Source: a virus. Taken from it: a DNA stretch of 39,345 nt. The notes below the pieces were generated by a model that was given only the letters and a program-made list of their open reading frames with translations, made no database searches and had not been told where the DNA came from. How positions within the stretch are numbered: the first letter of the stretch is position 1; every line of letters begins with the position of its first letter. This document shows positions 700-27,600 of this stretch, piece by piece. The translations under genes and the position numbers were made by a program. The stretch is from positions 1 to 39,345 of the IMG/VR virus record IMGVR_UViG_3300042479_000206. One strand, 5' to 3'.

Positions 700-2991
700 T
701 TATCTTGATTGTCTAAAGCTTCCTTCTATATCTGTTTTCCATAACATATCGGTTATAGTGTGCTTAACTGAAGTTACTTGAAAAAATCCAGTCTTTTCAT
801 AGTTTTTAGGTAATCCCAACACTTTAAATTTATCACCTCTTTTAATACCACTTATCCCATGTATTGTAAATGTAAATTTAATTGGCATAATAGGTCCTAC
901 TTGAGCGGCCGCTTTACCTTCAGCACTTTCATCATTTTGATTTTTAAAAAATTCAAAAACCGCTTGGTCATTAAAAGAAACCGTAATTACATCATCCTTT
1001 AAATCCCCAGCTCCAAATGAATGTTTATCATCGAATTGTGGTTTGGGCATCAATCCAGTTTTATCCAACATTAATTGTAAATTTTTTATCTTTGCTTCTT
1101 CCAATTCATCATCAGTAGGTCCTTCAGGAAGAGTTGCGTTTTTTGATACAGGTGGTTCTCCTCTATTTTTGATTGTTTTTAAGACTTGGTCCTCTTTATC
1201 AGTAAATAATCCTTTTGTATCTTTTGATTTAACATCTTTTTGACTTCCATTAATTGATTGTCCTAATCTATTACCAATTATCTGATTCATTTTTGCGCCA
1301 CTAATATCCATATCCAATGAAGCATCTATAAAAATGGATTCATATCCAGCTAACGTAAAAGTAAATGGTTCTTGTGGTCCACTTGGTGTTAAATTTAAAT
1401 CAACAACTCTTAATTCGGTATCATCTTCATCAGACATTATTTGAAAATCCCACAATCCACCAGCTGCAGATGACATCCCATTCAGTATTTGATATAATGC
1501 ATTTCGCATGGTAAAGTTTTTTGTTTCCATTACACCTTTTGCAAAATCTAAATTAACATAAAGGTCATCTAATAATCCCCATTGCCCTTGGCTCTTTTTT
1601 AATCCAATAATTGAACCATCTACACTTTTATTTTGAAGAATTATTCCGTAACTCACAGCCACACCATTTTCTATATTACCTGCAGCTGGAAACATAAATG
1701 GTTTACCTGTATCCCTTACATTTAATATTGAACAATCTTCAGTTTCCGTAGTGTCTTGCGCTGGTGGTGGTTCACTACTTGCTGCCTTAGCTATACTAAA
1801 TTTAGGCGCAGTTTTATTTGGTATAAATAATTTTCCTTTATCGGTACTAAATATTTTTTGGAATGCACAACAAGCTGTGGTTTTTGTATTTATTCTAGTT
1901 TTTACAATTTTGTCTCCTATCTTAAAACCCTCTATACCAATTTGATTAAGTATTTCCATTAATGTTCCAAATCTTATAAAAGCTTCATCTTTTATAATTT
2001 CCGTACCCGCTGGGTATTCAACCGGTGCTCCATCGGTTTGTTGTTCTTCATTATTTAAAGTTATCCCTAAAAGTGTAGTACCAGTTGTTAATTCATTTAC
2101 TTTTGCTTTTACAGATTCATCAACATTTATAAAATTAGATGGACTTGCTATGGATGGATTTGTTATTAAGGATGCAACCCTTGTAGTTCTTCTATTTGAT
2201 GGTAATCTATTAAATGCCATCATAAACCTTTTTTTACCCAAATCAGTTTCTCCAGATATTTGAGCAGTACTATATTCTTTTTCTGTTATTTTTGGAGTAC
2301 CATCTTTATTTGTTTCCGAATTATCAGCTCCCATAAAATATGCAGGTAATTCTGTAAATCCAGTACATTTAACAGTTATTTCATAAGTATCCCCACTAGA
2401 TGCCAATCCCCCTCCAGTTATAAATCCCAAATAGTTATCATAAGTTCCAAGTGATGCTGCTCTTGCTTCATTTACAGTTTTAAAACTTTGAAAATTAGCC
2501 ACCGTAGTTGCGTTTAGTGTGGGCTTATATGATTTTAAAGATTCAGCAACGTTCCATCCCCATTCTAAAAATATAGTATATCCAGGTTCTAAAAAATATT
2601 CACATAAAGTATCAAGTTGTCCTTTAGTATAACATGTTATAGTAAACGATGCTTTTCTACTTAAAGTACCGGCCCCTTCATCAATTTCAATAGATGTAAT
2701 ATTTGGTTTAGGTCTAAATCCAGAATCATTGGCTTCTGCATATATCGCACCGCCACCCCAAGTAGTTCCTAATGTACCACTAGCTTTTCCATCACCATAT
2801 ATAGATGCCTCACCAGCTGCTCTAAATAATTTGAAATTAGGATTAGATAATAATACAAGTCCAGCACCAACACCAGACGATACCCTAACCCAAGCGTTTA
2901 ATTGAGATACTGATTCGGGTTTTTCAACTCTTTTTTTTAATGCACTTCGTACATATCCAGATATGTTTGATAAATTAGGAAAACTTGACAT
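700..2991 (-). CDS. Baseplate hub-like structural protein (763 aa)
   Basis: Large protein without membrane segments, between the LysM-like baseplate gene (3-base gap) and the 123-residue gene (1-base gap). The N-terminal 250 residues include a Gly-rich segment and the motif YTIFLEWGWN, which I recall from large structural proteins of T4-like phages. The last 65 residues (GIKRGDKFKVLGLP ... GFFQVTSVKHTITDMLWKT) have the pattern of the C-terminal beta-barrel of gp27/late-control-D hub proteins: a 'G..GD.F.V.G' turn, then 'V..V.H.I....W.T'. Residues about 600-690 are charged and probably flexible. I infer a hub or hub-adjacent baseplate subunit. The family assignment is from pattern only; a structure-based search would settle it. 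Confidence 0.68.
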   Translation of the reverse strand: MSSFPNLSNISGYVRSALKKRVEKPESVSQLNAWVRVSSGVGAGLVLLSNPNFKLFRAAGEASIYGDGKASGTLGTTWGGGAIYAEANDSGFRPKPNITSIEIDEGAGTLSRKASFTITCYTKGQLDTLCEYFLEPGYTIFLEWGWNVAESLKSYKPTLNATTVANFQSFKTVNEARAASLGTYDNYLGFITGGGLASSGDTYEITVKCTGFTELPAYFMGADNSETNKDGTPKITEKEYSTAQISGETDLGKKRFMMAFNRLPSNRRTTRVASLITNPSIASPSNFINVDESVKAKVNELTTGTTLLGITLNNEEQQTDGAPVEYPAGTEIIKDEAFIRFGTLMEILNQIGIEGFKIGDKIVKTRINTKTTACCAFQKIFSTDKGKLFIPNKTAPKFSIAKAASSEPPPAQDTTETEDCSILNVRDTGKPFMFPAAGNIENGVAVSYGIILQNKSVDGSIIGLKKSQGQWGLLDDLYVNLDFAKGVMETKNFTMRNALYQILNGMSSAAGGLWDFQIMSDEDDTELRVVDLNLTPSGPQEPFTFTLAGYESIFIDASLDMDISGAKMNQIIGNRLGQSINGSQKDVKSKDTKGLFTDKEDQVLKTIKNRGEPPVSKNATLPEGPTDDELEEAKIKNLQLMLDKTGLMPKPQFDDKHSFGAGDLKDDVITVSFNDQAVFEFFKNQNDESAEGKAAAQVGPIMPIKFTFTIHGISGIKRGDKFKVLGLPKNYEKTGFFQVTSVKHTITDMLWKTDIEGSFRQSR

Positions 2992-2994
2992 AAA

Positions 2995-3282
2995 TTAGTT
3001 TGTAAAATTATTACTTATTTGAATATAGTTTAATGGAATTCTTAATATAGTACCATCTTGCAATCCCATAGGTGCATCATGTATATTATTTGCAGCTGCA
3101 ATAATCCACCATAATGATGAATCTTCGTAATATTGGAATGCCAATGTATCCAATCTGTCACCAGTTTCCGTCATTACATATACATCAGTATCTTTTAACG
3201 GAATATTTGGGTATATTTTTGTTCTATATACTTCTCTACCATCAAAAGTTTTTTTAATAGGATTATTATCGTATCTACTCAT
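2995..3282 (-). CDS. LysM-like baseplate wedge protein, gp53-like (95 aa)
   Basis: Residues 39-83 (TGDRLDTLAFQYYEDSSLWW ... NNIHDAP ... GTILRIP) form a LysM-type fold signature: G-D-x-L-xx-L-A, a Tyr-rich turn, a Trp pair and a closing G-x-x-L-R-I-P strand. Small phage proteins with this arrangement sit in baseplates (the T4 gp53 and tail protein X types) and link the inner baseplate or tail tube to neighbours. T4 gp53 is longer (about 196 residues), so this is a minimal form. It sits between the 974-residue protein and the hub-like protein in the same unit, with gaps of 11 and 3 bases. No catalytic residues are expected or seen. Confidence 0.82.
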   Translation of the reverse strand: MSRYDNNPIKKTFDGREVYRTKIYPNIPLKDTDVYVMTETGDRLDTLAFQYYEDSSLWWIIAAANNIHDAPMGLQDGTILRIPLNYIQISNNFTN

Positions 3283-3293
3283 AATTGATATAT

Positions 3294-6218
3294 TTAAAAT
3301 TGACCTTCGTTAGTTATATTACCAAACGCATCAAATTCAGGTCCTGTACTTTTCTTTCTAGTAAATTTACCTTCGTTGGTTATATTACCAAACGCATCAA
3401 ATTTAGGTCCTGTATCTTTCTTCCTATCGAATTTACCTTCGTTAGTTATATTACCAAACGCATCAAATTTAGGTCCTGCATCTCTTTTTTCTGAAGTAGC
3501 TATTGAGGATTTATTACCTTCGGATTCTTTATTAGCTTCTTTATTGTTTAAAGTTTTTAAATTAGTTTGTTTAAGAGTTTCAGATGATTCAACTTTAGTT
3601 GCATCTGATGATATGTTAGCATCGCCTGATTTTTGTGCATTAGTTGATTCACTTGGAACTGGTTTTGTTGAAATGTTAGCTCCCAATCTACTAAATCCAT
3701 AGAATTGTTTACTATCAGTTGTACTTTTTGATTCCAATAGTTTCAAAGTAATTGAAACATCTATAACTATTGGTAATTTATAATCTTTAATTGAAACCTG
3801 CTTACCATTGACCGTAACTTTATCAGGTGTATCAATAGAACCAATTTCCCAACCAGCATTATCATCCATAGTATATGATAGTGACTCGATATAAGTAGGT
3901 TTATTTTTATATAAACTACCCAACGTAAGATATACAAATGGAGGAAGTGCATACGGACCTGAATATCCTTGGGGATACGCTAATCCGGTTAAAAAGTTTA
4001 ATCGTTGCCAACATGCTATATGTTGTGTAGGGGTTGTTGAATACATTTTAAAATTAAAACTTACACTTCTTTCTATACTCGAATATGTATAATGGTTAAA
4101 TGGAGAACCTATAAATTTTGCAGTATCCCATGATGGTGATACAGTTTCTGATATACCAGTTACCGTTGCTCTAAAATTTGCAGTTTCACCAGTAGCTACT
4201 GATTTAAATTTAAGTGTTATAAAATCAGTATCATCTAATAATGTACCATCCGATAATTTAAGCGGACCATTTGATGTATATGTTGTTTTTTCATTTAAAA
4301 AATCCAATTTATTAGCACTTTCTATACCATATTTGGTTTTTAAACTTTTTGATTTTTCTTTACCAGCATTTTTATTTTTTAGAGATGAATACATATTCAT
4401 TTGTACATCAGTTCTGGATAAACCAGAAATACCACCTGCACTAGAAACTGCGCTACTTGCTTTTATTAATGCTTGTAATTTTGTTGATAAATCATTTCTT
4501 AATTTTACATCATCCTGTGTCTCATCTACTGTTGATGAATATGTAATAACATCACCTGAAGTAGCTTCTGATAAATCTCCTACTTTTTTAGTACCGTCTG
4601 ATATAGATTGCTGTCCTAACTTTCTACCCGATTGCAATCCACCTTTTGTATCTTTATCAGCAGATTTAACTTTATCCTCCGATTTTGCAAATGGATTTTG
4701 TTTTACATTTAAAGCACCTACGTTTCCTTTTGCTGCTTCAATTTGCTTCTTTTTATCAGGAGTTTGTTTTTCTTTTTCGTTTTTTGATGTAAGTATAGTA
4801 GAAAGGTCATTTCTTAACTTTACATCATCCTGTGTTTCATCTACAGTATCGGAATATCTAATTACAGAATCCGAAGTAGTTGTTGAACCTCCACTTTTCG
4901 TATCTCCAACTTTTTTACCAGCCGATACTTCTTGCTGTCCTACCTTTTTCGCTTGTGATAATTTTTGTTCACTTTCTTTTTTAATATCACCTATTTTTTG
5001 ACCTAAGTTTGCAAATGGGTTTTGTTTTACATTTACAGGAGCGGTATTTCCTTTTGCTGCATCAATTTCTTTTTTCTTATCAGGATTTTGAGCTTCATTT
5101 TCTTTTTTTGCAGAAAGTATAGTAGATAAATCATTTCGTAATGTTACATCATCAGATGTTTCATCAACAGTATCCGAATATTTAATTACAGAATCATCAG
5201 TAGTAGATGTACCTCCACTTTTAGTATCTCCAACCGATTTTCCAGCTGATACTTCTTGCTGTCCTACTTTTTTTGCTTGTGATAATTTTTTCTCATTATC
5301 TTTTTTAATATCACCTACCTTATCACCTAATTTAGCAAATGGATTTTTTGATGTATTTACAGATTTTCCTTTAGGAACTAATTCATCTACTCTTTTTTGT
5401 ACAGCAGGGTCAGCATTCTGTTTTGTCTCCTGTGCTACTAATATAGATGAAAGGTCATTTCTTTTGAAATAATCTTCATCAATTGGATTAACGGTATCTG
5501 AATATCTTGCAGTACTATCGTATTGAACATCATTTTCACCTTTTTTAGCAAGGTTTTGTGCACCTTGTTTTGGTGCTCCGAATAATTTTTTCTTAACTTC
5601 GCCTTTTAGTAAATTGATACCACCACCTAATATTTGGTTACCTATTTGTTTAGGAGTACCTTTTGCATTTTGAGCTAAAAACTTTCCAGCCAAATTACCA
5701 GCACCATCTTGCTTTATTTTAGCAAGTGTTGCCATTGTATCTGGCTCTTTACCTGCTTTGAAATCTTTATTTAAAGATATTCGGGTTGGTATTAATTTAG
5801 TTGGTAGTTGTACACCTATTTTATTTAATAATTCTAATCCTTTTTCTTTTCCTTTTTGAAATAAGTTACCAAGTAAACCACTATCTGCTGAATTATTTGG
5901 ATTAACCGAATCTTTCATTGCGGAAACCATTTCAGTTTTTTGTGTACTTAATTTAAAAATATCAGTACCATATATAATAGGGCCTCCTAATTTAGATATT
6001 ATTCTTAATCCAGTTACCTCTTGTTCTAATCTTGTTTCTCTAGTTCTTGATGATAGGTTTCTTCTTGCTATTTGTACAGCTTTAAATGGTAAATCCATAG
6101 CACCGGTAGAAGAACGTAATAGCATATCTTTACTATTACGAATTTCGTATTTTTCAGCAGCCGTTTTACCATCTACTAATTGTTTTGTTTTAAATAATTC
6201 TTCAATAGTCTTTCCCAT
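3294..6218 (-). CDS. Repeat-containing baseplate protein with tube-like C-terminal domain (974 aa)
   Basis: Four parts are visible. (1) Residues 1-220: a basic N-terminal region. (2) About 230-590: three full and one partial copy of a roughly 105-residue charged unit beginning YSDTVDE..DDV.LRNDLST and containing NPFA..G.K.GDIKK and LSQAKKVGQQEVSAGK, probably extended or helical. (3) About 605-830: a compact domain with SFNFKMYSTTPTQH, RLNFLTGLAYPQGY, LPPFVYLTLGSLY and LPIVIDVSITLKLLES; this resembles tube-initiator/tube-cap type proteins of T4-like baseplates. (4) The last 66 residues: three 22-residue repeats of GP.FDAFGNITNEG.F. It lies 2 bases after the tape measure stop and before the LysM-like gene, so a baseplate-tube junction role is the best inference. 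Confidence 0.7.
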   Translation of the reverse strand: MGKTIEELFKTKQLVDGKTAAEKYEIRNSKDMLLRSSTGAMDLPFKAVQIARRNLSSRTRETRLEQEVTGLRIISKLGGPIIYGTDIFKLSTQKTEMVSAMKDSVNPNNSADSGLLGNLFQKGKEKGLELLNKIGVQLPTKLIPTRISLNKDFKAGKEPDTMATLAKIKQDGAGNLAGKFLAQNAKGTPKQIGNQILGGGINLLKGEVKKKLFGAPKQGAQNLAKKGENDVQYDSTARYSDTVNPIDEDYFKRNDLSSILVAQETKQNADPAVQKRVDELVPKGKSVNTSKNPFAKLGDKVGDIKKDNEKKLSQAKKVGQQEVSAGKSVGDTKSGGTSTTDDSVIKYSDTVDETSDDVTLRNDLSTILSAKKENEAQNPDKKKEIDAAKGNTAPVNVKQNPFANLGQKIGDIKKESEQKLSQAKKVGQQEVSAGKKVGDTKSGGSTTTSDSVIRYSDTVDETQDDVKLRNDLSTILTSKNEKEKQTPDKKKQIEAAKGNVGALNVKQNPFAKSEDKVKSADKDTKGGLQSGRKLGQQSISDGTKKVGDLSEATSGDVITYSSTVDETQDDVKLRNDLSTKLQALIKASSAVSSAGGISGLSRTDVQMNMYSSLKNKNAGKEKSKSLKTKYGIESANKLDFLNEKTTYTSNGPLKLSDGTLLDDTDFITLKFKSVATGETANFRATVTGISETVSPSWDTAKFIGSPFNHYTYSSIERSVSFNFKMYSTTPTQHIACWQRLNFLTGLAYPQGYSGPYALPPFVYLTLGSLYKNKPTYIESLSYTMDDNAGWEIGSIDTPDKVTVNGKQVSIKDYKLPIVIDVSITLKLLESKSTTDSKQFYGFSRLGANISTKPVPSESTNAQKSGDANISSDATKVESSETLKQTNLKTLNNKEANKESEGNKSSIATSEKRDAGPKFDAFGNITNEGKFDRKKDTGPKFDAFGNITNEGKFTRKKSTGPEFDAFGNITNEGQF
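3297..3490 (-). repeat. Three C-terminal 66-bp tandem repeats (22 aa each)
   Basis: Three nearly identical units encoding GP(K/E)FDAFGNITNEG(K/Q)F followed by a six-residue basic linker end the 974-residue protein. On the plus strand the shared core starts near 3303, 3370 and 3436. High nucleotide identity suggests recent duplication. Confidence 0.9.
4470..5526 (-). repeat. Long charged repeats inside the 974-aa baseplate protein
   Basis: Three full and one partial unit of about 105 residues, each starting near (R/K)YSDTV and holding RNDLS(S/T)IL, NPFA and KKVGQQEVSAGK. Units 1 and 2 share almost the whole second half; unit 3 diverges there; unit 4 stops after the RNDLST block. Confidence 0.85.
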
Positions 6219-6220
6219 CG

Positions 6221-8956
6221 TTATACTTTAGCGTATGAATTGGAACTAATTCTAGATACAACTTTACCTACATTAGAAGTAACTTTTTGTCCGTCTATAT
6301 TTACTGCTATTTTACCAGCTATTAAATCTGCTCTCAATCCTTTTATTTCATCAATCAACTCACCGGTTCTATCACCACTCTCACCTTCACCACCACCCAT
6401 AATTGCGGCTGCTCCTCCTGCTATCAATCCTAAAGCAAGTAATGCAGGTAGTGCCATCATTCCAGTAACAGCAACTGCTGCTAATGCTATTGATAATATA
6501 GTTAAAGCCCCAGCTAAACCTAATATTGGTAGAAAATCAATTTGTGATAATGCCGATATTTGTTCAGTAACAAATGGTATAACCGCTGATATAGCACCCA
6601 TACCTCCTGATACAAGCATTAACCCTGCACCAAATAATATCATAGATGCGCCCAATGCTGCAATACCAACAGAACCTGCTAATATAAGTGGTAATATCAT
6701 ACCTATACCAGCTGCTGCTAACCCAAACATAACTAGTCCGGCTGCGGCTGCTAATACAGCATCTATTTTTAAATTTTCAATTAAACTCATAGCAAATGCA
6801 AATGGTATTAAAGCTGCTCCTAAAACGGCAACTGCAACTGCACCTTGCAACATAGCTCCTTGTGCTTTAGATAATATAAATGCAATACCAGCTAATCCGG
6901 CCAATGCAACTAATCCCATACCAACCGACTCCCAAGTAACTTCTCCGAATTCTTGAAATGCTTTTGCTGCAACAAATAAAGCTGCTGCTAATATCAATAA
7001 TGCTACCGCACCTTTAATTAAATCTCCGCTTTTTATCTTAGACATTTTATTTGCCTGGTCAGCGGGTCCCGTTTGTGCTTGTGGTGCCATTGTTGTTGGT
7101 GATGGTGGAGTTGCTGGTGTTGTTGGTAATCGGTTTGCTTTAAAACGTTTATCAGGTAAACCATCTTTGGTTAGTGGTCCTGTTATTGAAGTGTCAGGTG
7201 TAGGAATTGGTGGTTTTGCTCCTCCAAAGAAACCTTTAATTTTGTCAAGTGCTCCCGAAGCCATACCTTTCACATCCATACCCATTTGTGCAAAAGAACC
7301 ACCCATTTGTGCAGCTCCTAACACCAACCCACCCATAGTTTTTAAAAATCCACCAGATGCGGTTGCAGATGCTGTTATAGCTTCTGTAATTTGATTAAAT
7401 GTAGAAACTTGAACAGTGCCATCATCATTTAATTTATCAGAATTAGCCGCCATCTTTTGGAATTCTTCAACTGATAATCCCAATAATTCAGCCGCCTTTC
7501 TCTTTTGGAAGATATCCATTTTATTGAATTCTTCTATACCACCTAAACTTTGTAATGTTTCTTTTACAGCCCCACCTATGTTTCCTTCGTATGCTAATGC
7601 TCTTGCTCTATCTAAATTAATATTTCTACCAAGCATAGCACCTAATTCCAATTCACTATTTATTGATGTTTCAAAATCTAAAAGGGAATCAGTTACTTTG
7701 GTTAATGAGTCCATACCCACTCCCAATTTAGCAGCTGATACAGCAGCCTTAGCTATATTCAATCCACCATCTTTACCATATTCCGCAAAAGCTTGAGCAG
7801 AACCAGCAACATCTTTCATTACCTGGTCAACAGGAACACCAGCTGCCTTTGCCATTTCTTTTGTTGTGGCTGCCATATCCATAGCAGTTGAAGCTGAACC
7901 ATCGTTCATTCTTGCAAAACTACCAACTATACTAGCTGCTTCGTTACCACTAATACCCATATTAGTAGCCATTAAATTAGTATTTAATTGAGTACTAAAG
8001 GTTACATCTTTTAATCCACCAAATTCTTTTGATAACGATTTTGCTGTTTCTTCCGCATCATCAAATATAAAACTAAGTCCTAATGCTGAAAATTGGGCGG
8101 AATCAATAAATCCACCAAAACTTCTAATATTTTTTCCTAACTTATCTGCCGCAAATCCTGCTCCTAACAATCCCACACCCAATGCTCCCATTGGTCCTTT
8201 TGTTATCATAGATAAAGTACCAAGTACTCCTCTTATTGATTTTTTTACACCTTCGTATGCCTGAATTTGTGCCTCTATTAATTCTTTGGTTTCCTTAGTA
8301 ATCGTACCATATTTTTGGGCCGCAGCCAAACTATTTTGTTGTGTATCTAACGATGCTAATAATGCATTAGCTTCTGCTTCTGTAATTTCACCGATTGATT
8401 CTTTTACTGTAATGGCCTCTCTTAACTTATTAAGTTGAGCATCATACGCAGTTGAAATGGATTTTTGAGTTTCCACATCTTCCGGTCCAGTTTCTGCCAT
8501 TTTTTGCTGCAATCCTTGCAATTCTGATATACCAGTTAAAGTACTATCTAATAATACTTTTTTATTTTCATCAGCTATTAATGAAGCTTGGACAGATGAT
8601 AATGATGATTGTACAGTTACTAAACTTTGCTTCTGAACATCTGTTAATCCTTTATATACTTTTGAAATTGAAGATAACCCATCTGCTTGCTGTGCGTATG
8701 CGTTAGCTATATCAAGTTCAACTTGCTTAGTACCCAACAGCCGTTTTGCTCTTTTTTCTTGAATAGCAATATTTTTAGCAAGAAGTATTTCTTGTTTGTA
8801 TAGTTCATCAGATTCTGCAGAACTCAACTCTCCTTCTTTTGTTTGTAACTCAAGAATTCTAGTTCTATATTTTTGAATTCTTTCTAAAATAGACAAGGAA
8901 GCTTCCGCCGCTCGGGCGGCATCTCTAGCTGCTCTTTCTTCTGGAGTTAGTGCCAT
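6221..8956 (-). CDS. Tail tape measure protein (911 aa)
   Basis: Sets tail length and occupies the tube lumen before ejection. The first 240 residues are predicted helical and charged, with many Ala, Glu, Gln and Lys in coiled-coil pattern. A Gly/Ala-rich hydrophobic patch follows near 245-275 (GPMGALGVGLLGAGFAADKL), then a long Ala-rich helical core to about 560, a Pro/Thr-rich linker near 590-630, and a dense series of hydrophobic segments from about 642 to 852 (e.g. ALLILAAALFVAA). This is the usual design of tape measures. Its place after the tail chaperone gene and before baseplate genes agrees. T4 gp29 is 590 residues; at about 1.5 angstrom per residue this one would imply a tail near 135 nm (inference). 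Confidence 0.88.
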   Translation of the reverse strand: MALTPEERAARDAARAAEASLSILERIQKYRTRILELQTKEGELSSAESDELYKQEILLAKNIAIQEKRAKRLLGTKQVELDIANAYAQQADGLSSISKVYKGLTDVQKQSLVTVQSSLSSVQASLIADENKKVLLDSTLTGISELQGLQQKMAETGPEDVETQKSISTAYDAQLNKLREAITVKESIGEITEAEANALLASLDTQQNSLAAAQKYGTITKETKELIEAQIQAYEGVKKSIRGVLGTLSMITKGPMGALGVGLLGAGFAADKLGKNIRSFGGFIDSAQFSALGLSFIFDDAEETAKSLSKEFGGLKDVTFSTQLNTNLMATNMGISGNEAASIVGSFARMNDGSASTAMDMAATTKEMAKAAGVPVDQVMKDVAGSAQAFAEYGKDGGLNIAKAAVSAAKLGVGMDSLTKVTDSLLDFETSINSELELGAMLGRNINLDRARALAYEGNIGGAVKETLQSLGGIEEFNKMDIFQKRKAAELLGLSVEEFQKMAANSDKLNDDGTVQVSTFNQITEAITASATASGGFLKTMGGLVLGAAQMGGSFAQMGMDVKGMASGALDKIKGFFGGAKPPIPTPDTSITGPLTKDGLPDKRFKANRLPTTPATPPSPTTMAPQAQTGPADQANKMSKIKSGDLIKGAVALLILAAALFVAAKAFQEFGEVTWESVGMGLVALAGLAGIAFILSKAQGAMLQGAVAVAVLGAALIPFAFAMSLIENLKIDAVLAAAAGLVMFGLAAAGIGMILPLILAGSVGIAALGASMILFGAGLMLVSGGMGAISAVIPFVTEQISALSQIDFLPILGLAGALTILSIALAAVAVTGMMALPALLALGLIAGGAAAIMGGGEGESGDRTGELIDEIKGLRADLIAGKIAVNIDGQKVTSNVGKVVSRISSNSYAKV

Positions 8957-9249: not shown

Positions 9250-9444
9250 GTTTGATTTCATTTTTGATTGAGCCTTTTTATGTTCTTCAGCTTCTTTTTT
9301 CTTAAGTTCTATCAACTTATTAAAATAAAATTTACGAAGATATGTTGGCATGTGATAAACCTCTGACCAAGTAAACCCATTACTGAATTGAACCATTTCC
9401 CAAATTTGAGAATGTAATTGGGTTCTATAATCAGTTGGAAGGGT
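9232..9444 (-). CDS. Frame-shifted extension of the gp26-like chaperone (gp51-like small ORF)
   Basis: A 70-codon ORF in the +1 (equivalently -2) frame relative to the 271-residue gene, overlapping its end. It reads TLPTDYRTQLHSQIWEMVQF, then a segment with FTWSEVYHMPTYLRKFYFNK and a Lys/Glu-rich tail, ending right at the terminator. The frame opens only after a TAG at 9472-9474 and has no ATG before codon 17 (9394-9396), which would leave 54 residues and cut the probable first helix. The FTW..VY.MP..LR.FY pattern resembles small baseplate-hub assembly proteins encoded after gp26 in T4-like phages (from memory). Expression by slippage on the T7 run at 9445-9451 would give a fusion of about 337 residues. 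A separate start at the internal ATG is the alternative. Confidence 0.72.
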   Translation of the reverse strand, partial: TLPTDYRTQLHSQIWEMVQFSNGFTWSEVYHMPTYLRKFYFNKLIELKKKEAEEHKKAQSKMKSNKVRMR

Positions 9445-10246
9445 AAAAAAAGTTAATCCCGAATGGGATATCTAGCGCCTCCATCTCACCAGTTATTTCA
9501 GATGTAAATTGGAATTTCATATCCAAATCGGGTGATATTTCTTTAACATAAGCTCTAAATGCTTTTGTATCCTTTGCTAAAAATGAATTAACTACCCATC
9601 TATTTACAAAACCTCTATCCTCATTACCATCTACTGAAACAATCATATATTTCAAACGAGTTGTAACATCAAATGATGTGCCAGAATTCTTATTTAATTT
9701 TTCTAAAGCTTGTATTTCTTTTGTAATTTCTTGCTCATCACCATGTGTAAGTAATTTAAAAATAACTTCAGTTCCAGTTGATGGTAATTTGAATGTATAT
9801 CTATTTTTTGAATTTAATACATCATCATCAACATCTTTTGTTTGAACTTTACCTAAATCAATAACAACAGTTTGCTTTTCTAATGAAAATGGGTCAGTCA
9901 TTTCTATTTGATAATCAGCACCATATCCTAAAATACGAGTTGCCATTAAAATAGCGTTTTTATCACCAATATAGATATCATTTGGATTTACTCCAGGTTC
10001 AACTAGAACCGATTCAAATAGTTTATCTAATACAATACCTTTTTTAATAAGGTTTTGATTTGCAAGGATATCTTCTTCTCTAGCTGTCATATATTTTATT
10101 TGACAAGTACCACCTCTCAATGGATGTCCTTCAGGATATACCAATCCTTTTGATGGTAATTCAATTGTTTCCGTTGGAAAATCAAATTTCAATGCCTCTA
10201 CCTGTTTAGGTGTTGGGGTTTGCTGTGCAATATTAACTTCTGCCAT
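9431..10246 (-). CDS. gp26-like baseplate hub assembly chaperone (271 aa)
   Basis: Resembles the T4 baseplate protein family of gp26: an N-terminal LPSKG..YPEGHPL segment, a helical 'TAREEDIL' block (KYMTAREEDILANQNLIKKG), a central beta region (FKLPSTGTEVIFKLLTHGDE), and a C-terminal end in 'FF(Y/W)P' (GINFFYPSN). In T4, gp26 acts in hub assembly and is not a major virion component; in many phages the gene in this place is a tail assembly chaperone expressed with a frameshift. It has its own upstream TATTTATA (10274-10281) and a terminator behind it. The last codons contain seven T in a row, and a second ORF continues in another frame, so two products are likely. Confidence 0.82.
   Translation of the reverse strand: MAEVNIAQQTPTPKQVEALKFDFPTETIELPSKGLVYPEGHPLRGGTCQIKYMTAREEDILANQNLIKKGIVLDKLFESVLVEPGVNPNDIYIGDKNAILMATRILGYGADYQIEMTDPFSLEKQTVVIDLGKVQTKDVDDDVLNSKNRYTFKLPSTGTEVIFKLLTHGDEQEITKEIQALEKLNKNSGTSFDVTTRLKYMIVSVDGNEDRGFVNRWVVNSFLAKDTKAFRAYVKEISPDLDMKFQFTSEITGEMEALDIPFGINFFYPSN
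9445..9451 (-). other. Candidate slippery site (T7 run) for programmed frameshifting
   Basis: The codons AAC TTT TTT TAC near the end of the 271-residue gene hold seven consecutive T on the coding strand. Entering the downstream ORF needs a +1 or -2 shift; the run permits repairing of Phe-tRNA with UUU after a -2 move. The zero-frame stop is four codons later (9431-9433). Confidence 0.55.
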
Positions 10247-10365: not shown

Positions 10366-10854
10366 TTAGAATTCTAAGATTGCGTAATCGTAAGCCAAAG
10401 ATAATTCAATAGTTGCTGGTTCGTTTGAATCGAATGCAACATCACCAAAATTTGCAGATATAATAAATGCTCCTTTTAATTTCCATTGTTCAATTTTATC
10501 ACCAACAGGTCCTAACATATAGAAATCTATATCTTTTTTATAGAAATCTGCATATCCTCGTCTACCAGTAATTGATTCGTGTCCTAAACGTACCCACTCC
10601 ATTACCGCTTGTGCTCCAGATGGAACAATTGGGTCATACAATGTTACAGTTATATCCTGCCACTCACCCTTACCTTGTAACTTTCTTTTAATGTTGATGT
10701 GGTCTAACACAATCGGTTCAAATGTGATTGAAGGTCTAGCTGCTGCTTTAACCATATATGAAGGAATTCCATCGATTTCCATCACATATCTATTTTTCAT
10801 CTTAGGTTCGAAGTTCGTATAGAACATCTTATCAAACTCTAGTATTTCTGCCAT
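10366..10854 (-). CDS. Tail tube protein, gp19-like (162 aa)
   Basis: Major inner tube subunit of a contractile tail; hexamers stack inside the sheath. Length (162) equals the usual T4 gp19 size (163). The order of segments fits the family: NRYVMEIDGIPSYMVKAAARP near the start, ARPSITFEPIVLDH(INIKRK) for the hexamer-forming strand, WQDITVTLYDPI, WVRLGHESITGRRGYADFYK, WKLKGAFIISANFGD and a C-terminal beta strand IELSLAYDYAILEF. It lies directly after the sheath gene, the standard gp18-gp19 order, and has its own promoter-like element and a strong terminator, fitting a protein needed in high copy. The leader shows AAGGA seven bases before the ATG. Confidence 0.93.
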   Translation of the reverse strand: MAEILEFDKMFYTNFEPKMKNRYVMEIDGIPSYMVKAAARPSITFEPIVLDHINIKRKLQGKGEWQDITVTLYDPIVPSGAQAVMEWVRLGHESITGRRGYADFYKKDIDFYMLGPVGDKIEQWKLKGAFIISANFGDVAFDSNEPATIELSLAYDYAILEF

Positions 10855-13814: not shown

Positions 13815-16800
13815 TTATTTTTTTAATAATTCCATCAATTGTTTCTTAAGTTCAGCTATTTCGGATTTCATTTCATCCATTTCGGTTTGTTGTTCTTTAA
13901 TTGCTTCTACTAATACAGGTATCAATCTATCATACTTAACAGTTAAATAATGTTCGCCAGATATTGATGTTCCATCAGCTTCTATATCAAATGGTGCTGG
14001 TTGAACTAATTCCGGACATACCTTTTGAACTTCTTGTGCCGATAGACCCAATTGAATACTATCATCGGTATAACCCCATTTTTTTGCAGTTTCATTATTT
14101 GTATAATAGAAACCTCGTAAACTCATTATTTTAGAAAGTGCGTTTGGAATTGGACCAATAACATCTTTTAATCTTTCATCTGAATAATATGCAGTTACGT
14201 TACCGGTTACATAAAGGTCATTGCCATTAAAGAATCCAGAACCATTGATGTTACCAGTACCAGATGCTGACATATAATCATCAACATTACCATAGGTATT
14301 ATATGAATGGAATACAACTCTACCACAAGCCGCAAGTCTTAAACGGTCATGTATAGTTGATACATCAGGGTCATTACCTTTGAATATCAATAATTCTGAT
14401 TCATCCCCATTTCTCCAAATTCTTTCTATTATAGCTCCGTGGTTATATGAGCCGGGGTTATCACCAACAACTCCATAGAAACGAATTTCATTTGATGTGG
14501 AAGATCTTGGTGAAATTTGTATAGCTCCTATTCGAGATGTACCAGTAGGGTCTATATAAGTACCGGTATCATTAGAATCGTAGAATATTGGTGCTCTAAA
14601 CGATTCAGCTGCTTCTATATAAGTCGTACCCCAACCTATATTTCTTCCCATTAATAATCTTCCACCAGAATATATGAATACTGATTCAACTGAAGTTCCA
14701 CTATCATGTATTGAAAATTCCCATTCATCTGCACAGTTTGCTAATATACCAGTTGTAATACTACCAGCCCAACTACCATTTTGGAAGTTATAGTTATATG
14801 ATGTACTACCTATTTGAAGTACACCCGGATATCCATGATTATAGTTGTTATCACCAACACATAAATTTCTTATAAATGATTGACCTGTTGGGTCGGTGTA
14901 TCTACCTGTATCGTTTTGGTCATAGAATATTGGTGCTCTAGAACTACCATTTGAGTATGAGTTACCACCTCTATCAATGTAGAAATCAGTAGTACCCCAA
15001 GAACCATTTCTATGTCCGTGGTCGTGATTAATTCTAAAAAATCCAGAATCATTATATCCGTATCCACAACTCCATGTTTGACTATCAAATCCGTTAGAGA
15101 ATAAAATAGAAGGTCTATCAGCTCCACCATTTGCTTCAATACGGAATTCACCAGTTATACCCCAAGAGTGGTTACCATAACTATTTGTTACCAACATAGT
15201 ACTATTGTTTCCCGGTGCTGAACCTGTTTTTGTAATAGTTACAACTTGTCCATTTGATTGAGCAAAATTACTAAATCCATTAGGGTTTACATAATATGAA
15301 GTATCATTAGAGTCATAAAATATTGGTGCTCTCATATCACCATTTGCTTGCATTACACCATTACTATTAATGAATGCAATTTCAGTACCTACTCTTTGGA
15401 ATGAGAATATGTTATTTCTATATCCTTGACTAGGCCCATCTACAGTTTGACAATTAAAATCAATATATCCACCCCATAATGCAATACCATCGTTAAAGTC
15501 ATTATTTAAACGAATTCTTAATTGAGATGCTTCACCACCATCAATACCAGTAAAGTAAGTGATTGCTGCACCATCTGAAGGTGTATTATAATCTGAAAAG
15601 AATTCAATATTTGCATATCCAGACGGACTTGCTGATGTTGGGTGTAAAATTAAGTTTGCTAATGGTTGGGAGTATGAACCCCTTCCCGTTGCCAATGTTG
15701 GGTAAATTCTACTACCATTTAATCTACTTTCACCATTCGGGTCAACATATCTACCAGTATCATTTGCATCATAGAATATTGGTGCATCTACTCTACTATT
15801 ATTATAGAAGTGTCCTCTAGTGTCTATTGCATATCCAGGTTCACCACCACCAATAGCACCCCAATCGCCTTGTGAACCTAAACCAATGTTTCCATTTTCA
15901 CGGAATCTCATAAAGGTTGTACCAAGATAACCAGCAATACCATTATGTGGATTCCAGTTACTATTTCCTTGAGAACCATTTGAAAATCCTATATCTAATG
16001 AAATACCATCACCAGTAGAACCAAACACCCATTGTCTATTATTTAATCCATTATGAACGAATTGAATTGTAGGTCCGTGATTTGTATTTGATGTTACCGT
16101 ATGGTCTAATGTTAATACAGGATAATTACCTCTAATGTAAACCATAGGTCTTACGTTACCATCCAACAACGAATAAGGTGTTGATGTATCTCCTACAATA
16201 ATCCTATTACCAACAACACCACCAGCATAACCAGAAACGTACAAATCACGTCCAATTCTAGCATTTCCGCCAGCAGGGTCTACATAATATCCAGTATCAT
16301 TTAAATCATAAAATATTGGTGCTCTAACATCTCCAGGAAATTCAACTCTTTGCGTACCCCATCCAACGTTTTCACCAATAGTCCAAGCTAAGTTTTCATA
16401 AGAAATTTGTCCTAAGTTTTGATTTTCATCTAATGCAGTAATTGATGATTTAGCCGATGAACGTAACATAATATTAGAACCACCAGCTTGTCCAAAGCCT
16501 CGTCTATCATTACCACCATGTCCAACTATTAAATCAGCTTCTACATATCCACCGTATGCACCATTTCTAGAAACTTCTATTCTATTCAATAGACTACGTT
16601 CTGCTGCATTTATAAAATAAGCAGTGTTATCATTATCATAAAATATTGGTGCTCTAAATGATGCTTGCGCGTATCCATCTCTACCAACAATTACGTCACC
16701 ATTATTTTGGTCAACTCTAAATTTCTCATAAGCCGTTCTATTACCACTTACTCTTGAAGGTACAGTAAATGAACGAATTTGTCCAGTTGAACCTTCGGAT

Positions 16801-19800
16801 GTAAATGCAAACATATTGTTTGGATTATCATGCCACAATCCCCATCCAGTATATGGCTCATAATCAACAAATATACCAGTCCAACCTTCTGCTGTTTCCT
16901 GTTGTATTGCCAAAGAACCTCCAGATGAACCAGTACCACTTGATACTGAAAGAATTGCCGGTCTATTGTAATTTGCTGCTCTTAATGAACCTGCAATATT
17001 AATTGAAGTTCCAGTATCAGCCGGATTTAAATAAAATGCCGTATTATCTCTATCCGCAATATAAGGAACGAATAATGTATTTGTTATTCTTACGTTTTGG
17101 TCACCAACACCAACCCCCATTAATTCAGTTGTAGAAACACCAGGTGAGTCATTCATAAATCTAGTACCACCATAAGCAGGGTTACCACCTATTTCAACAC
17201 CAGTGTGCCATCCTAAAGAAAGTCTTGTATATGTAGCAAGTCCATTACTATATGGTGCCTTTACATACATCATATAATAAAGATTTCCATCGGTTCTAGC
17301 TCCAGAACTAATACCAGTAGATGAACCTACAGATGATGGGTCTGAATTACTATCTGCTAAATTTATGTGTCTAGTAGTTCCACTACTTTGTCCTGTTCTA
17401 AAGAAGAACGTACCATCATTATCATAAAAACTATCACCCCAAATTTGAGGTGCTCTGAAAGAAGAATCTACACTAGCATCACCAGCAGCACTTAATGTAA
17501 ATCTTTGTATATGACTTGCACTCCCTGCTTGTCTCAATGCAATACCAAATACACCTTCATACGTTCCGGTTCCTTTATATGCTCTTAAAGATGCTCTATG
17601 GTGTTGTCCATCGGTATCATTAGTACTCATACCAATTTGAACTCTTTGACCGGATGCTAAATTTTGTACAAACAATGCATCATTAAAATCACCATTAGCT
17701 ATATTATGAGCCAATGTTAAAAGATATTGAGTGGTAGAACCAAATATACTAGAACCATTTGGATTTAAGTAATATGCCGTATTATCTATATCGTAATAAA
17801 TCGGTGCGTACATACCCACACCAGCTCTCATTTCTGATGTAGCTTCGTATGTTCTTGTTCTTTCAGCATCAATATCAGTACCATCATAAACAGTTGCAGA
17901 TGCTAAGTAAGTATAGAATGTTGCGGTTGAACCACCTACAATATAAAAGAAGTGAGTTGATGAGAATGATGCCGTACCAGAATGAACAAGGAATGCATAA
18001 TCCTGATATTGACCCGTACCTGCATTTGATGTCAACCATTCACCAGTACCATTAGAACCAATAGAGTTAGATGCCCATTCAACACTTCTACCAACAGGTA
18101 TCTTCATTTTGAATACACATAATAACCTTCTACTTGAAGGACCCGTACCTGCTGCGAAGTACCAACCACCATAACCAGGACTTGTTCCGTTTGAAGTGGT
18201 TGGTGCATGTTGAATTTCTAATACAAATCCACTTCTATTTGGCATATTAGCCGCAGTTCCATCAATAAACGAACCATTTTTTCTTGTTATGGTTACAGCT
18301 GAACCACCTGCATTGTTGTATACCTGAATTGAGTTACTACCATCTTGAAATTCTTCATCCGGATATAATTTGTATCCAGTTGGTTTTAACATACCCCAAA
18401 TTGCGTTGATAGTACCCGTTGCTGTATTTGAACCAACACTATTTAAAACTTTCAACCCATCAATAAAAAATTCAGCAGCGTTTAATTGAGATACATTTGA
18501 ATATCCATTAGGGTCTATATAAAATGCAGTGTTGTTACTATCAATAAATTGTGGTGCTCTATAAGAACCTCTTGCTTCAGCATATCCTGAATATATTCTT
18601 GTTTCCCAAGTATCACCAACACGTGTTTCATGTCTATCAGAGTAACCTAATATAGAAGTAGTAGGTGTTCCACCCGTACTACCAGCAGTTGCTCTAAATC
18701 CAATTACCGATACACCATTTGCAGCTGGGTATAATCTAATATTTTCATTGTAATTATTGTTGTTAGCAGTATTATAACTCAGCCACATGTTATTACCAAT
18801 GAATATACCATCAGCAGGTCCATTTAATTGGATAGGAACTAAACCACTAACCGGGTCATAAAATCCAGTTGAAAGTGAGTTGTTGTTCGGCATCCAAATA
18901 TATGAGTCCGAACCTTCCATTCTAATATCACCCTGAATTCTTAAATCATTTAGGTTTGAAGTGGATGCCCCATCTATAAAATATGCTGTATTATCCGAAT
19001 CATAAAATATTGGTGCTCTAAAATCTACGTTAGCAGTAATATTTCCAGAACTATTAATATTCATTCTTAAACTTCCACCAGTAGCATGAGTAATTGCATT
19101 ATGTGTATAAAAATCTATTTGAGTTGCTGGGTTAGCTTCATATATATTTCCTCCAATATAAATTTGGTTTGCGGCTGCACTATTATATGCTCCTATAATG
19201 GTTGTTCCTTGTGCTTGTGATGTTGCATTATAGTGAGTACCAGTTAAAGTTGAAAATTTATTAGTACCTTCACCAGCAGGTCCCATTAGGATATTACCAC
19301 CAGAACTATTACCAGCAGCAGTTAATCTTATTTTATTAAATGATGGGGAATCGGATGTTCTAACTGCTTGGTTTAGATAATCAGAAAATTGATAACCATC
19401 CCATAAATCCGCATCTAATCCAGTACCAGCTCCATCATTCGCACTATGCCAAATTGTTCCACCAATATGCCCTTGATTTGCGGTAGTCATTGTTACCCAT
19501 CCAACCGATGACCAAGTTGTATTATCCGTTCTATTTCTTATTTTGAATCCTCTAACAGGAGTATTGTATTCAAACTCCATTTGGACTGTTCCAGTAGACC
19601 CACCCATATTAGTAGACCATAATCCCGAACTATATCCTGTATAACTTAAGGTTCTAAATCCATTATCAACATAAGTATCAATACTAGTACCAGTTCCTCC
19701 ACTTAAATTTCTAAAGAACGATGAATTTTGCTGTCCACCTAAATAATCAGAGTTTAAGTTACTAACTAAAGTTGTAGATGATACTACGAATGGTGATGTA

Positions 19801-23322: not shown

Positions 23323-23766
23323 TTAGGGTTTTATAGGCCATTCTATATTAAAAGGATTTTGTTGATTGGTTATATCTCTTAATTGTTGTCTATATGCTGT
23401 CCACAAATCTTTTATTGTTTGTGAAACATCACTTAATTGTGTCCAATCGCATTCTGTAAGTAATTGATTTCTAATAAACCTAATTTCTTCCCATTGATTT
23501 TCCAATCTATAATTTATTTCAGATTCTGTTGCATTTGTACTTACCCAATTTTGATAATACACACCATCCGTTAAAACAGGAGTTCCTTCGATAATATTTT
23601 TTGTGTAATCATTTGGCATTGGGGTTGATGTTACGAAATATACACCCCATTCACTTAAAGCTTCTTCCGATAATTCGGCTGGTAAACTTACATTAGGATA
23701 TGCTTCTCTCAATTCCTTAATAGTATAAGGATAGTTTATGGTTTCATTTATAATTCTTAAATACAT
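23323..23766 (-). CDS. Tail fibre assembly chaperone-like protein (147 aa)
   Basis: The C-terminal 50 residues follow the tail fibre assembly pattern: RNQLLTECDWTQLSD, then WTAYRQQLRDI and a closing P..IEWP. The R..LL..DWTQ..D...W..YRQ.LRD...P..I.WP signature occurs in small chaperone-like proteins next to phage fibre genes. The N-terminal part (YPYTIKELREAYPNVSLP) matches the usual acidic start of these proteins, which read a host- or fibre-specific partner. It begins one base after the stop of the PKD/LRR gene (TAA-T-ATG), so coupled translation is likely, and it may help fold the giant fibre or the PKD/LRR protein. Confidence 0.85.
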   Translation of the reverse strand: MYLRIINETINYPYTIKELREAYPNVSLPAELSEEALSEWGVYFVTSTPMPNDYTKNIIEGTPVLTDGVYYQNWVSTNATESEINYRLENQWEEIRFIRNQLLTECDWTQLSDVSQTIKDLWTAYRQQLRDITNQQNPFNIEWPIKP

Positions 23767-24681: not shown

Positions 24682-27600
24682 TTAACTCATATTTTTTCCA
24701 ACTACAAATCCGTAATATGTTGTACCATTATTAAATGTAAAGAATGATAATACATCCGTACCGATTGATGTTAATATTGGTGCACTTCCATTAACCCAAT
24801 CTACACTAGCAGGCCATGTTATAGAATATCCTCCGGCATTAACCATTGTAAATGTAAATCCAAATGCGTTTGATGATGGAGGATTTGTAAACAATATTGC
24901 CGATGTACCAGTAAATTGTCTTCTAAAGTTATTTGCAAGGGAAAGGTCTATTGTTGTATTTGTACCAGGTCCCAAATCCAAATATGTTTCTCTAAATGTT
25001 GTAGAAGTTATATGAGTAGAAGATACTATATTTCCAGTTATAGATAAACTAGTACCATCAAATGTCAAATTACTTTCTACATTAGCTTGAACAGGAACAT
25101 CCTGATATGTAAGTAACCCATTATTAGTTGTACCATTTAAACTAAATCCATTTGTACCAGAAGTTCCAGACGTAAAGTTTGGAGGAGTTGTACCTGATGT
25201 ACCAGACGTACCTGTTTGCCCAGATGTACCACCACTTCCAGCCGTACCAGATGTAAAGTTTGGTGGAGTTGTACCTGATGTACCAGACGTACCAGTTTCA
25301 CCGGATGTTCCACCACTTCCAGATGTTCCAGAAGTAAAGTTTGGTGGAGTTGTACCAGAAGTTCCAGATGTACCAGTTTGACCAGATGTACCACCACTTC
25401 CAGATGTTCCAGAAGTAAAGTTTGGAGGAGTTGTTCCAGAAGTTCCCGATGTACCGGCTTGTCCAGTTGAACCAATTCCACCTGATGTTCCTGAAGTACC
25501 ACTACTACCAAAGAATGTGCCATTTAAACCAGAAGTACCAGATGAACCTCCACTACCTGAAGTTCCGGATGAACCCGCCGTTCCTGCAGTTCCAGTTGAA
25601 CCAGAAGTTCCAGAAGTTCCAGACGTACCAGAAATTCCAGAAGAACCAAAGAAAGTTCCATCAAATCCAGAAGTTCCAGAAGTTGCGGATGTACCAGACG
25701 AACCAGATGTACCAGCCGTTCCAGTAGAACCACTACTACCAGCCGTTCCAGTAGAACCAGATGTTCCACTACTTCCAAAGAAAGTTCCATCAAATCCAGA
25801 AGTTCCAGATGTACCACTCGTTCCAGATGAACCAGATGTACCAGCCGTTCCAGTAGAACCAGAACTTCCAGATGAACCAGATGTTCCACTACTACCAAAG
25901 AAAGTTCCATCAAATCCAGAAGTTCCTGCTGTTCCAGAAGAACCATTCGAACCACTTTCTCCGCTTGTACCAGAAGTTCCAGCCGTACCACTCTCTCCAC
26001 TAGTACCACTACTTCCAAAAAATGTACCATCGAATCCAGAAGTTCCACTTGAACCAGATGTTCCACTTGTACCAGCACTACCATCAGTACCAGCTCCACT
26101 TGTACCACTACTTCCGCTTGAACCACTACTTCCAAAGAATGTACCATCTAAACCAGAAGTACCAGATGAGCCACTTGAACCAGAAGTTCCAGATGTTCCA
26201 GAACCAGAAGTACCACTACTACCACTTGAACCACTACTACCAAAGAAAGTTCCATCAAATCCAGAAGTTCCAGATGAACCGCTCGTTCCAGATGTACCAC
26301 TACTTCCACTTGTTCCACTACTTCCACTTGTACCAGCTGTACCATTAGTTCCACTACTACCAAAGAAAGTTCCATCTAATCCAGAAGTACCACTTTCACC
26401 AGAAGTTCCCGATGTACCAGCAGTACCAGTTGAGCCATCAGTTCCCGATGTACCATTAGTTCCATTAGTTCCAGAAGTTCCATTTGAACCACTACTTCCA
26501 AAGAATGTACCATCTAAACCAGACGTACCACTACTTCCAGAAGAACCTCCACTACCAGAAGAGCCCGATGTACCAGAAGTTCCAGAAGTTCCAGATGTTC
26601 CATCAGAACCCGTTGTTCCAGATGTTCCACTACTTCCAAAGAAAGTTCCATCTATACCAGAAGTACCAGAAGTTCCGCTTGTACCAGAAGTACCAGATGT
26701 TGCACTTGTCCCAGAAGTTCCAGATGAGCCAGAAGAACCAAAGAAAGTTCCATCTAATCCAGACGTCCCAGAAGTTCCACTTGTACCACTTGTACCACTA
26801 CTACCAGAAGTTCCTGAAGTACCATCAGTTCCAGATGTTCCAGAAGTTCCATCTATACCAGACGTACCAGATGAACCAGTTGTTCCTGATGTTCCCGATG
26901 TACCATCCGTTCCAGTTGAACCAGATGTACCGCTTGAACCAGATGTACCACTGGTGCCACTAGTTCCATCAATACCAGAAGTACCGCTCGTTCCAGATGA
27001 ACCAGTTGTACCCGATGTTCCACTACTTCCCGAAGTTCCACTACTTCCAGATGAACCATCTATTCCCGAAGTTCCAGAAGTACCATCTATTCCTGAAGTT
27101 CCACTACTACCTGATGTTCCACTACTTCCCGATGTACCACTTGTACCAGACGTTCCGCTTGTACCATCTACACCAGAAGTACCCGATGAACCAGATGTTC
27201 CAGAAGTTCCATCTATACCAGAAGTACCAGATGAACCAGTTGTTCCCGATGTACCAGAAGAACCACTACTACCAGAAGTTCCACTACTTCCATTTGAACC
27301 CGATGTACCAGAAGTTCCGCTTGTACCGGATGTTCCAGAAGAACCAGTTGTACCCGATGTTCCACTACTTCCACTACTTCCAGATGAACCACTACTTCCC
27401 GATGTACCACTACTACCACTTGTACCACTACTTCCCGATGTACCACTAGTTCCAGACGAACCAGATGTTCCAGACGAACCATCTTCTCCGCTTGTACCAG
27501 AACTACCACTACTTCCACTCGTTCCAGAAGTTCCGCTTGTACCAGACGTTCCAGCTGAACCAGTTGTTCCCGATGTTCCAGAAGTTCCGGATGTACCACC

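Follow-up and report, generated by a model that had tools for sequence, protein, structure and literature searches.

The question raised by this locus is why a core part of a phage tail should carry long arrays of repeats. The locus lies in a 39,345-nucleotide stretch of viral DNA (positions 1 to 39,345 of IMG/VR record IMGVR_UViG_3300042479_000206; hereafter, the window), in which positions 3294-6218 on the minus strand form a single intact open reading frame (ORF) of 974 amino acids (aa), as given by the ORF listing and its translation. The initial annotation described the product as a baseplate protein with a tube-cap-type domain enlarged by two repeat systems. The results below indicate that this protein is most likely a tail-tube initiator, as judged by predicted fold and gene order, and on balance we favor the view that it is an initiator with an expandable arm, maintained by selection and probably composed of binding modules. 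Loading of the tape measure at the contractile-tail baseplate is poorly understood, and a 2010 review states that the detailed mechanism of length determination was unknown (PMC3004832); countable, naturally variable modules in a tube initiator would give a handle on tail assembly. Because the same 974-aa protein, identical in sequence, is present in five further contigs (L002-L005 and L011), a one-off assembly error is unlikely.

Both repeat systems were confirmed. Tandem Repeats Finder (TRF) detected the long repeats with a period of 324 bp at 4684-5347 and 4791-5461, and four related modules span residues 231-600, the six pairwise protein alignments between the units all scoring above 200 shuffles (Z 4.5-53.8). 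Each module consists of a lysine-rich stretch and a 27-residue motif, YSxTVDE..DD..LRNDLS, of which the window protein has four copies (Table 1). The array, of about 370 residues with 16% K+R and 16% D+E, agrees with the ∼360 residues of charged long repeats described at the outset. At the C terminus, TRF found 2.8 copies with a period of 66 and 91% matches at 3297-3478; the three 22-aa units begin at residues 915, 937, and 959, and their pairwise DNA identities of 55/60, 46/51, and 45/51 bear out the claim of near-identical DNA. The modules are preceded by a separate, conserved, and repeat-free N-domain (residues 1-230), absent from the initial annotation, with a ratio of nonsynonymous to synonymous substitution rates (dN/dS) of 0.06-0.18 against four relatives; it is retained at least partly in module-free homologues, and much of it in those of 535-580 aa.

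An AlphaFold2 model built with 47 family sequences gave a tube-like β-barrel domain, with block-mean predicted local distance difference test (pLDDT) values of 62-91 across residues 641-840, where 14 of the 20 blocks reach at least 80. The top three Foldseek matches were baseplate chains of extracellular contractile injection systems (eCIS) and of phage A-1(L), labeled "baseplate-initiators" (E 4.4e-6 to 1.0e-5, the best being 6j0n_b), and VIA-align matched P1 9ay5_G (Z 11.4, root mean square deviation (rmsd) 3.2, 146 residues), AFP 6rao_G (Z 10.4, rmsd 5.4, 152 residues), and T4 5iv5_BE (Z 9.6, rmsd 3.4, 146 residues). In BFVD, the matches included predicted proteins of S-CAM3 (E 4.7e-5) and P-TIM40 (E 7.8e-5) labeled "baseplate tail tube cap." The fold-search matches cover almost solely the tube-like domain, and a module-free 570-aa homologue yielded the same domain with AlphaFold2 and the same set of matches in the fold searches.

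Several observations weigh against this assignment. The fold is common to tube proteins generally, and because tube proteins and Hcp also appear among the matches, at lower scores, fold alone would not separate an initiator from a tube protein. The best Foldseek matches have at most 14% identity, and the target TM-scores of the top three are 0.36-0.47. The domain has no relevant Pfam or PHROG family up to E 1 and no match among PDB sequences at E≤10; however, PHROGs also misses the homologues of phages RM378 and immuto (see below) at E 0.1, so the lack of a family match says little. Finally, the N-domain and the repeats are nearly all below pLDDT 70. The mean over the whole protein is 55, and the low confidence outside the tube-like domain fits the possible flexible arms of the initial annotation. 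Gene order complements the fold: the tube protein is encoded by a separate gene of the window (phrog_4542), and the 974-aa ORF lies apart from it, among the tape measure gene, the LysM/gp53-like gene, and a large ORF at the hub position (a hub by position only). The order tape measure protein (TMP), initiator, ∼95-aa gene, large ORF recurs in relatives with enough flanking sequence. Overall, the modeled domain has the fold of a tail-tube initiator, in line with the tube-cap-type domain first proposed, and the whole protein is most likely a tube initiator, whose placement as a ring between hub and tube is suggested by analogy with T4 and A-1(L).

Comparison with known systems shows what is distinctive about the window protein. 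The eCIS chains AFP 6rao_G and PVC 6j0n_b, which we take to be Afp7 and Pvc7, have the same tube-like fold by Foldseek and VIA-align; their matched chains have 223-224 residues and no repeat arm, whereas the window protein has a repeat arm, with LysM in a separate gene. In Afp7, the LysM part is fused. The T4 fold match was to 5iv5_BE, presumably gp48 (Z 9.6), and more weakly to two 9mkb chains (Foldseek E 5.6e-3 and 1.4e-2), and the position of the window gene beside the tape measure and a gp53-like gene likens it to T4 gp48/gp54. In T4 there are two proteins, of 39.7 kDa (gp48) and 35.0 kDa (gp54), according to PMC3004832, whereas in the window one 974-aa protein with modules and repeats was found. 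Phage A-1(L) gp18 (8kea) has its fold in common with the window domain (matched chains of 279-281 residues); the available part of PMC10966104 describes it as hexameric, with the tube extending from it, the LysM protein gp16 beside it, and a TMP that forms mostly a six-fold bundle surrounded by gp18, and mentions no repeat arm. In the literature searched, which largely excluded subscription papers and included accessible portions of PMC3004832, PMC11948020, and PMC10966104, we found no tube initiator described as having a repeat arm, which is not proof of absence. Measured against T4 gp48 and gp54, the protein is thus unusual for a baseplate junction, as the initial annotation had held; within its own family it is not, because at least two modules occur in 21 of 70 relatives, and another group carries a different repeat in 8-27 copies.

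The comparison of homologue lengths and repeat numbers that had been suggested at the outset could be carried through by viral-contig searches and ORF analysis (two of the searches took the best 80 of 184 and the best 80 of 192 matches). It yielded 115 distinct full-length proteins with the tube-like domain, from 458 to 3136 aa in length, a wide span given that the T4 counterpart of this core tail component is small. We refer to those below 1,100 aa, minus RM378, immuto, and L227/L228/L232, as the window group, which is a size class and not a tested clade. Modules were counted at a motif score of at least 14 bits, using a model made from 28 copies in 11 chosen proteins, including close relatives of the window protein. 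Among 70 distinct window-group relatives, there were no modules in 40, one in 9, two in 10, three in 5, and four in 6, the single copies being mostly weak matches of about 14-18 bits. Absence of the module from 40 of 70 relatives counts against a general requirement and indicates that the arm is unnecessary for tube initiation as such and dispensable for the family.

Where modules are present, their arrangement is regular. The first copy begins at residue 236-240 in each of the 21 proteins that have at least two modules. Copies are spaced 103-132 residues apart (median 108, n=38), and between the end of the last one and the tube-like domain lie 47-103 residues. In the 62 copies scoring at least 20 bits, motif residues T, R, D, and S are conserved in 100% and N in 98%, although choice by score favors conservation. 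The C-terminal extension is 52 residues or longer in all 21 proteins with at least two modules, compared with 27 or fewer in 30 of the 40 without modules; shared ancestry may be the cause of this link. The 22-aa C-terminal repeats are confined to the window, L006, and L012 sequences (19 ORFs), other relatives having different ends, seven of which gave no Pfam match up to E 0.1; the three repeats are thus one among several interchangeable C-terminal ends. A scan of ORFs of at least 50 aa in 132 sequences, with flanks of at most about 10 kb, rejected the idea that the motifs are common to other proteins of the locus: RNDLS was confined to initiators and two truncated copies (L009 and L010), and NITNEG to the 19 initiator ORFs. 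None of 39 pattern matches to bacterial genomes was confirmed as a relative, and a search with the LR756508 domain gave zero relatives.

The substitution pattern indicates, at the sequence level, that the module units are under purifying selection. Against relatives L006, L008, L012, and L028, dN/dS was 0.04-0.32 for units 2-4 (L012 and L028 lack unit 2), similar to the 0.19-0.26 for the tube-like domain; it was 0.12-0.51 for module 1 where computable and 0.31-0.75 for the C-terminal linker at residues 846-912, a weakly constrained region with zero aromatic residues. Within the window protein, unit 2 against unit 3 gave 0.30, and the C-terminal repeats gave 0.17 (L006) and 0.29 (L012), compared with 0.72 for an 18-codon remnant in L028.

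The number of modules varies because copies are gained or lost and because phages exchange them, as read from a DNA tree of modules from nine proteins (support values were not looked at). The nine first copies cluster together, and window copies 2 and 3 lie near each other. The idea that copies 2 and 3 are a duplication absent from L012 is weakened, because the tree sets the middle copy of L012 beside copy 3; as four-module proteins also flank L012/L028 on either side in the protein tree, loss in L012/L028 is as likely as gain. Copy 2 of L015/L067 groups with window-type copies 2/3, inside L035, whereas their other copies group with those of L051, which points to exchange between phages.

We propose that the window protein would act as the tail-tube initiator of a contractile-tailed phage, in which the tube-like domain, by analogy with T4 and A-1(L), would form the hub-tube ring that starts tube polymerization. 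The arm ahead of it would comprise the N-domain and four modules, with linkers between them that are probably flexible. One module is bound to its position and is the sole copy in some relatives; further ones have been gained or lost and exchanged, and purifying selection keeps the copies. Each motif is most likely a binding site, so that the arm would surround the nascent tail with several equivalent docking sites. The partner that we tentatively favor, during assembly, is the TMP or its chaperone, because repeat number correlates with TMP length.

This correlation can be followed in a second group of relatives. The relatives of Microcystis phage Mel-JY01 (the long-array or Mel group) have 8-27 copies of a 42-aa repeat unrelated to the window module. 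In Mel-JY01 itself, the 2255-aa hypothetical protein WWT39329.1 has a tube-like domain homologous to that of the window protein (E 4e-17), and its gene is followed, as in the window, by a small gene and then a large gene; it differs in having 22 copies of the 42-aa repeat and an N-region with no detectable relation to that of the window (homology was rejected at hhalign probability 1.8, E 0.028). Because the N-regions are not detectably related, arrays probably arose more than once before the same domain. Two further homologues share the tube-like domain but differ ahead of it: that of Rhodothermus phage RM378 has 458 aa and, by eye, no repeat, and that of the Flavobacterium immuto phages has 716 aa and, by eye, two copies of another, ∼80-aa repeat. 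A 484-kb phage record has, again by eye, an acidic array of short repeats. A PHROGs scan of eight members gave zero naming matches, and one match of unknown function inside the Mel-JY01 repeats, so that such proteins remain "hypothetical."

For the comparison with TMP length, which serves as a stand-in for tail length, TMPs of relatives were assigned by position, and contrasts count only rows with a complete TMP. About 60 contrast tests, spanning subsets, two trees, two predictors, and as many as four responses, were made, and p values are uncorrected sign-flip values. Left out were near-duplicates L099, L105, L222, and L109 and L129 (a broken TMP ORF, 382 aa) for the long-array group, and L036 (a short TMP ORF) and near-duplicates L031, L046, L007, and L082 for the window group. 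In the long-array group (n=30), copy number correlated with TMP length (rho 0.74), with contrasts of r 0.55, p 0.001 on the initiator tree and, with the TMP tree, r 0.46, p 0.006; an earlier version with n=14 gave r 0.56, p 0.029, and inclusion of L129 gave r 0.384, p 0.0004 (n=31). Copy number was related neither to the length of the C-terminal extension (r 0.07, n=34) nor to that of the next large ORF (r -0.10, n=31). In the window group (n=65), the raw rho was 0.61, and the TMP tree gave r 0.28, p 0.0145; on that tree, the figures were r 0.68, p 0.008 for relatives with one or more modules (n=26) and r 0.60, p 0.068 for those with two or more (n=17).

Other results speak against a partnership with the TMP. 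On the initiator tree, the window group was not significant (r 0.23, p 0.14 for n=65; r 0.29, p 0.18 for n=51), nor did the subsets with one or more modules (n=26, r 0.55, p 0.09) or two or more (n=17, r 0.49, p 0.22) reach significance. Close pairs are out of step: L012 has three modules and a TMP of 925 aa compared with four and 911 in the window, and L118 and L122 have 10 and 13 copies with TMPs of 1293 and 1292 aa. A simple ruler is weakened or rejected by these pairs. Specificity is also imperfect. In the window group, the length of the gp26-type protein trends weakly with copies (r 0.15, p 0.07) and with pre-domain length (r 0.16, p 0.04); in the Mel group, pre-domain length is related to the C-terminal extension (r 0.25, p 0.004).

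A stronger version of the TMP link would have repeat number tuned to tail length, for example, with more docking sites loading or holding a longer tape measure. That two groups with unrelated repeats both give positive contrasts argues for it, as does the finding that long-array copy number is unrelated both to the next large ORF and to the C-terminal extension. We nevertheless regard it as unlikely, given the nonsignificant window-group contrasts (all window-group subsets on the initiator tree, and at least two modules on the TMP tree), the discordant close pairs, the 23-27 copies in L220, L221, and L223 although their TMPs have only about 1300 residues, and the number of uncorrected tests; moreover, slopes of about 9-11 residues of TMP for each 42-aa repeat give no hint that one repeat corresponds to one tube ring. 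For the earlier proposal that the extra parts could control assembly with the tape measure, the correlation is support of an indirect kind; its significance varies, and the close pairs do not follow it. Similarly doubtful is the combined proposal that, in a large group of uncultured phages, a selected array of binding modules co-evolves with TMP length and that unrelated arrays arose independently for the same purpose, which would make the arm a second length-linked element of the tail, acting outside the lumen during assembly.

Neutral expansion, in which unstable tandem repeats without function of their own would accumulate in a permissive linker, has slightly less in its favor and is also unlikely. 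Module-free homologues are common, copy number is labile, and other kinds of repeat precede the same domain in other lineages, which speaks for it. Against it are the strongly conserved motif, the fixed position of the first copy, and the contrast between the dN/dS of units 2-4 and that of the relaxed linker, since low ratios in the units indicate that copies are kept, which speaks against neutral filler. The initial annotation had held that repeat-free homologues with no fitness cost would indicate neutral expansion; homologues without the module do exist, but purifying selection on the modules argues against an expansion that is purely neutral.

We consider it improbable that the repeats and the interchangeable C-terminal ends protrude from the baseplate as arms that contact the cell surface. 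Although C-terminal ends vary among relatives with similar tube-like domains, the modules are conserved and not diversified, genes for two giant fiber-like proteins bearing (GTS)n tracts already lie close by, and the equivalent protein of A-1(L) sits inside the tail according to the available part of PMC10966104. Least probable is that the arm lies in the tube lumen alongside the TMP as a second tape measure: assuming a radius of 20 Å, 1.5 Å per TMP residue, six arms, and three or six TMPs, six arms and six TMPs would fill 72% of the lumen in the window phage, so that a wholly internal arm is possible there and the correlation with TMP length would be explained, but arms and TMP need 102-130% in L221 and L238, among the longest relatives, which makes it unlikely in these (83-104% in Mel-JY01), and the close pairs are again out of step.

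The favored reading, an initiator with a selected arm of probable binding modules, places the following features in the window.

Table 1. Features of the initiator gene and its neighbors in the window
Feature	Position	Strand	Residues or length	Basis
Tail-tube initiator (gp48/gp54/Afp7-type, most likely) with repeat arm	3294..6218	-	974 aa	ORF, fold searches, gene order
N-domain	5529..6218	-	residues 1-230	homologue sequences and alignment; dN/dS
Module motif 1, position-bound copy	5433..5513	-	residues 236-262	motif scan
Unit 2	5022..5345	-	residues 292-399 (108 aa); motif 2 at 344-370	motif scan, self-alignment
Unit 3, nearest unit 2	4698..5021	-	residues 400-507 (108 aa); motif 3 at 452-478	motif scan, dN/dS, module tree, self-alignment
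Unit 4	4419..4697	-	residues 508-600; motif 4 at 557-583	motif scan, self-alignment
Tube-like (tail tube initiator) domain, predicted	3687..4319	-	residues 634-844	hmmsearch envelope, AlphaFold2, fold searches
C-terminal linker	3483..3683	-	residues 846-912	dN/dS, composition
Three C-terminal 22-aa repeats, GPxFDAFGNITNEGxF	3297..3476	-	residues 915-974	TRF, dN/dS
Tape measure protein (TMP)	6221..8956	-	911 aa	phrog_4372, E 7.9e-10
LysM/gp53-like baseplate protein	2995..3282	-	95 aa	phrog_7145 "baseplate wedge subunit," E 8.8e-13
Large ORF at hub position	700..2991	-	763 aa	position and gene order only
T4 gp26-type baseplate protein	9431..10246	-	271 aa	phrog_150 baseplate hub; PF12322 under its cut-off
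Tail tube protein, distinct from initiator	10366..10854	-	162 aa	phrog_4542, E 1e-27

Among these neighbors, the 95-aa protein is one that we take to be of LysM type, and a PHROG scan of the 763-aa ORF gave no match up to E 1. The TMPs of the window, L006, L008, and L012 look strongly mosaic in alignment, with separate stretches resembling different partners and the last ∼45 residues near identical. L036 has a TMP ORF of 675 aa with ∼1 kb left after it and the gp26-type gene at its normal distance, possibly reflecting an interrupted or split TMP, and its initiator is identical in six contigs; in L129, ORFs of 657 and 382 aa lie where the TMP is expected.

Two observations by eye concern the N-terminal regions of other initiators. 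Residues ∼60-150 of the L119 initiator contain an additional ∼22-aa repeat, SSTKLDDTKAFNTSPIENR, upstream of the 42-aa array, so that some initiators bear two different N-terminal arrays. The Mel-JY01 and immuto initiators (L020 and L021) seem to share an N-terminal motif, LL-L--DL---R, which the window protein does not have.

The giant fiber-like proteins are encoded at 13815-22634 (2939 aa) and 24682-35985 (3767 aa), both on the minus strand, and have very long collagen-like (Gly-Thr/Ser-Ser)n tracts; the end of the 2939-aa protein resembles what we take to be an intramolecular chaperone. A tail fiber assembly protein is encoded at 23323-23766 on the minus strand (phrog_4912, E 6.5e-17), transcriptionally downstream of the 3767-aa protein and a 300-aa ORF.

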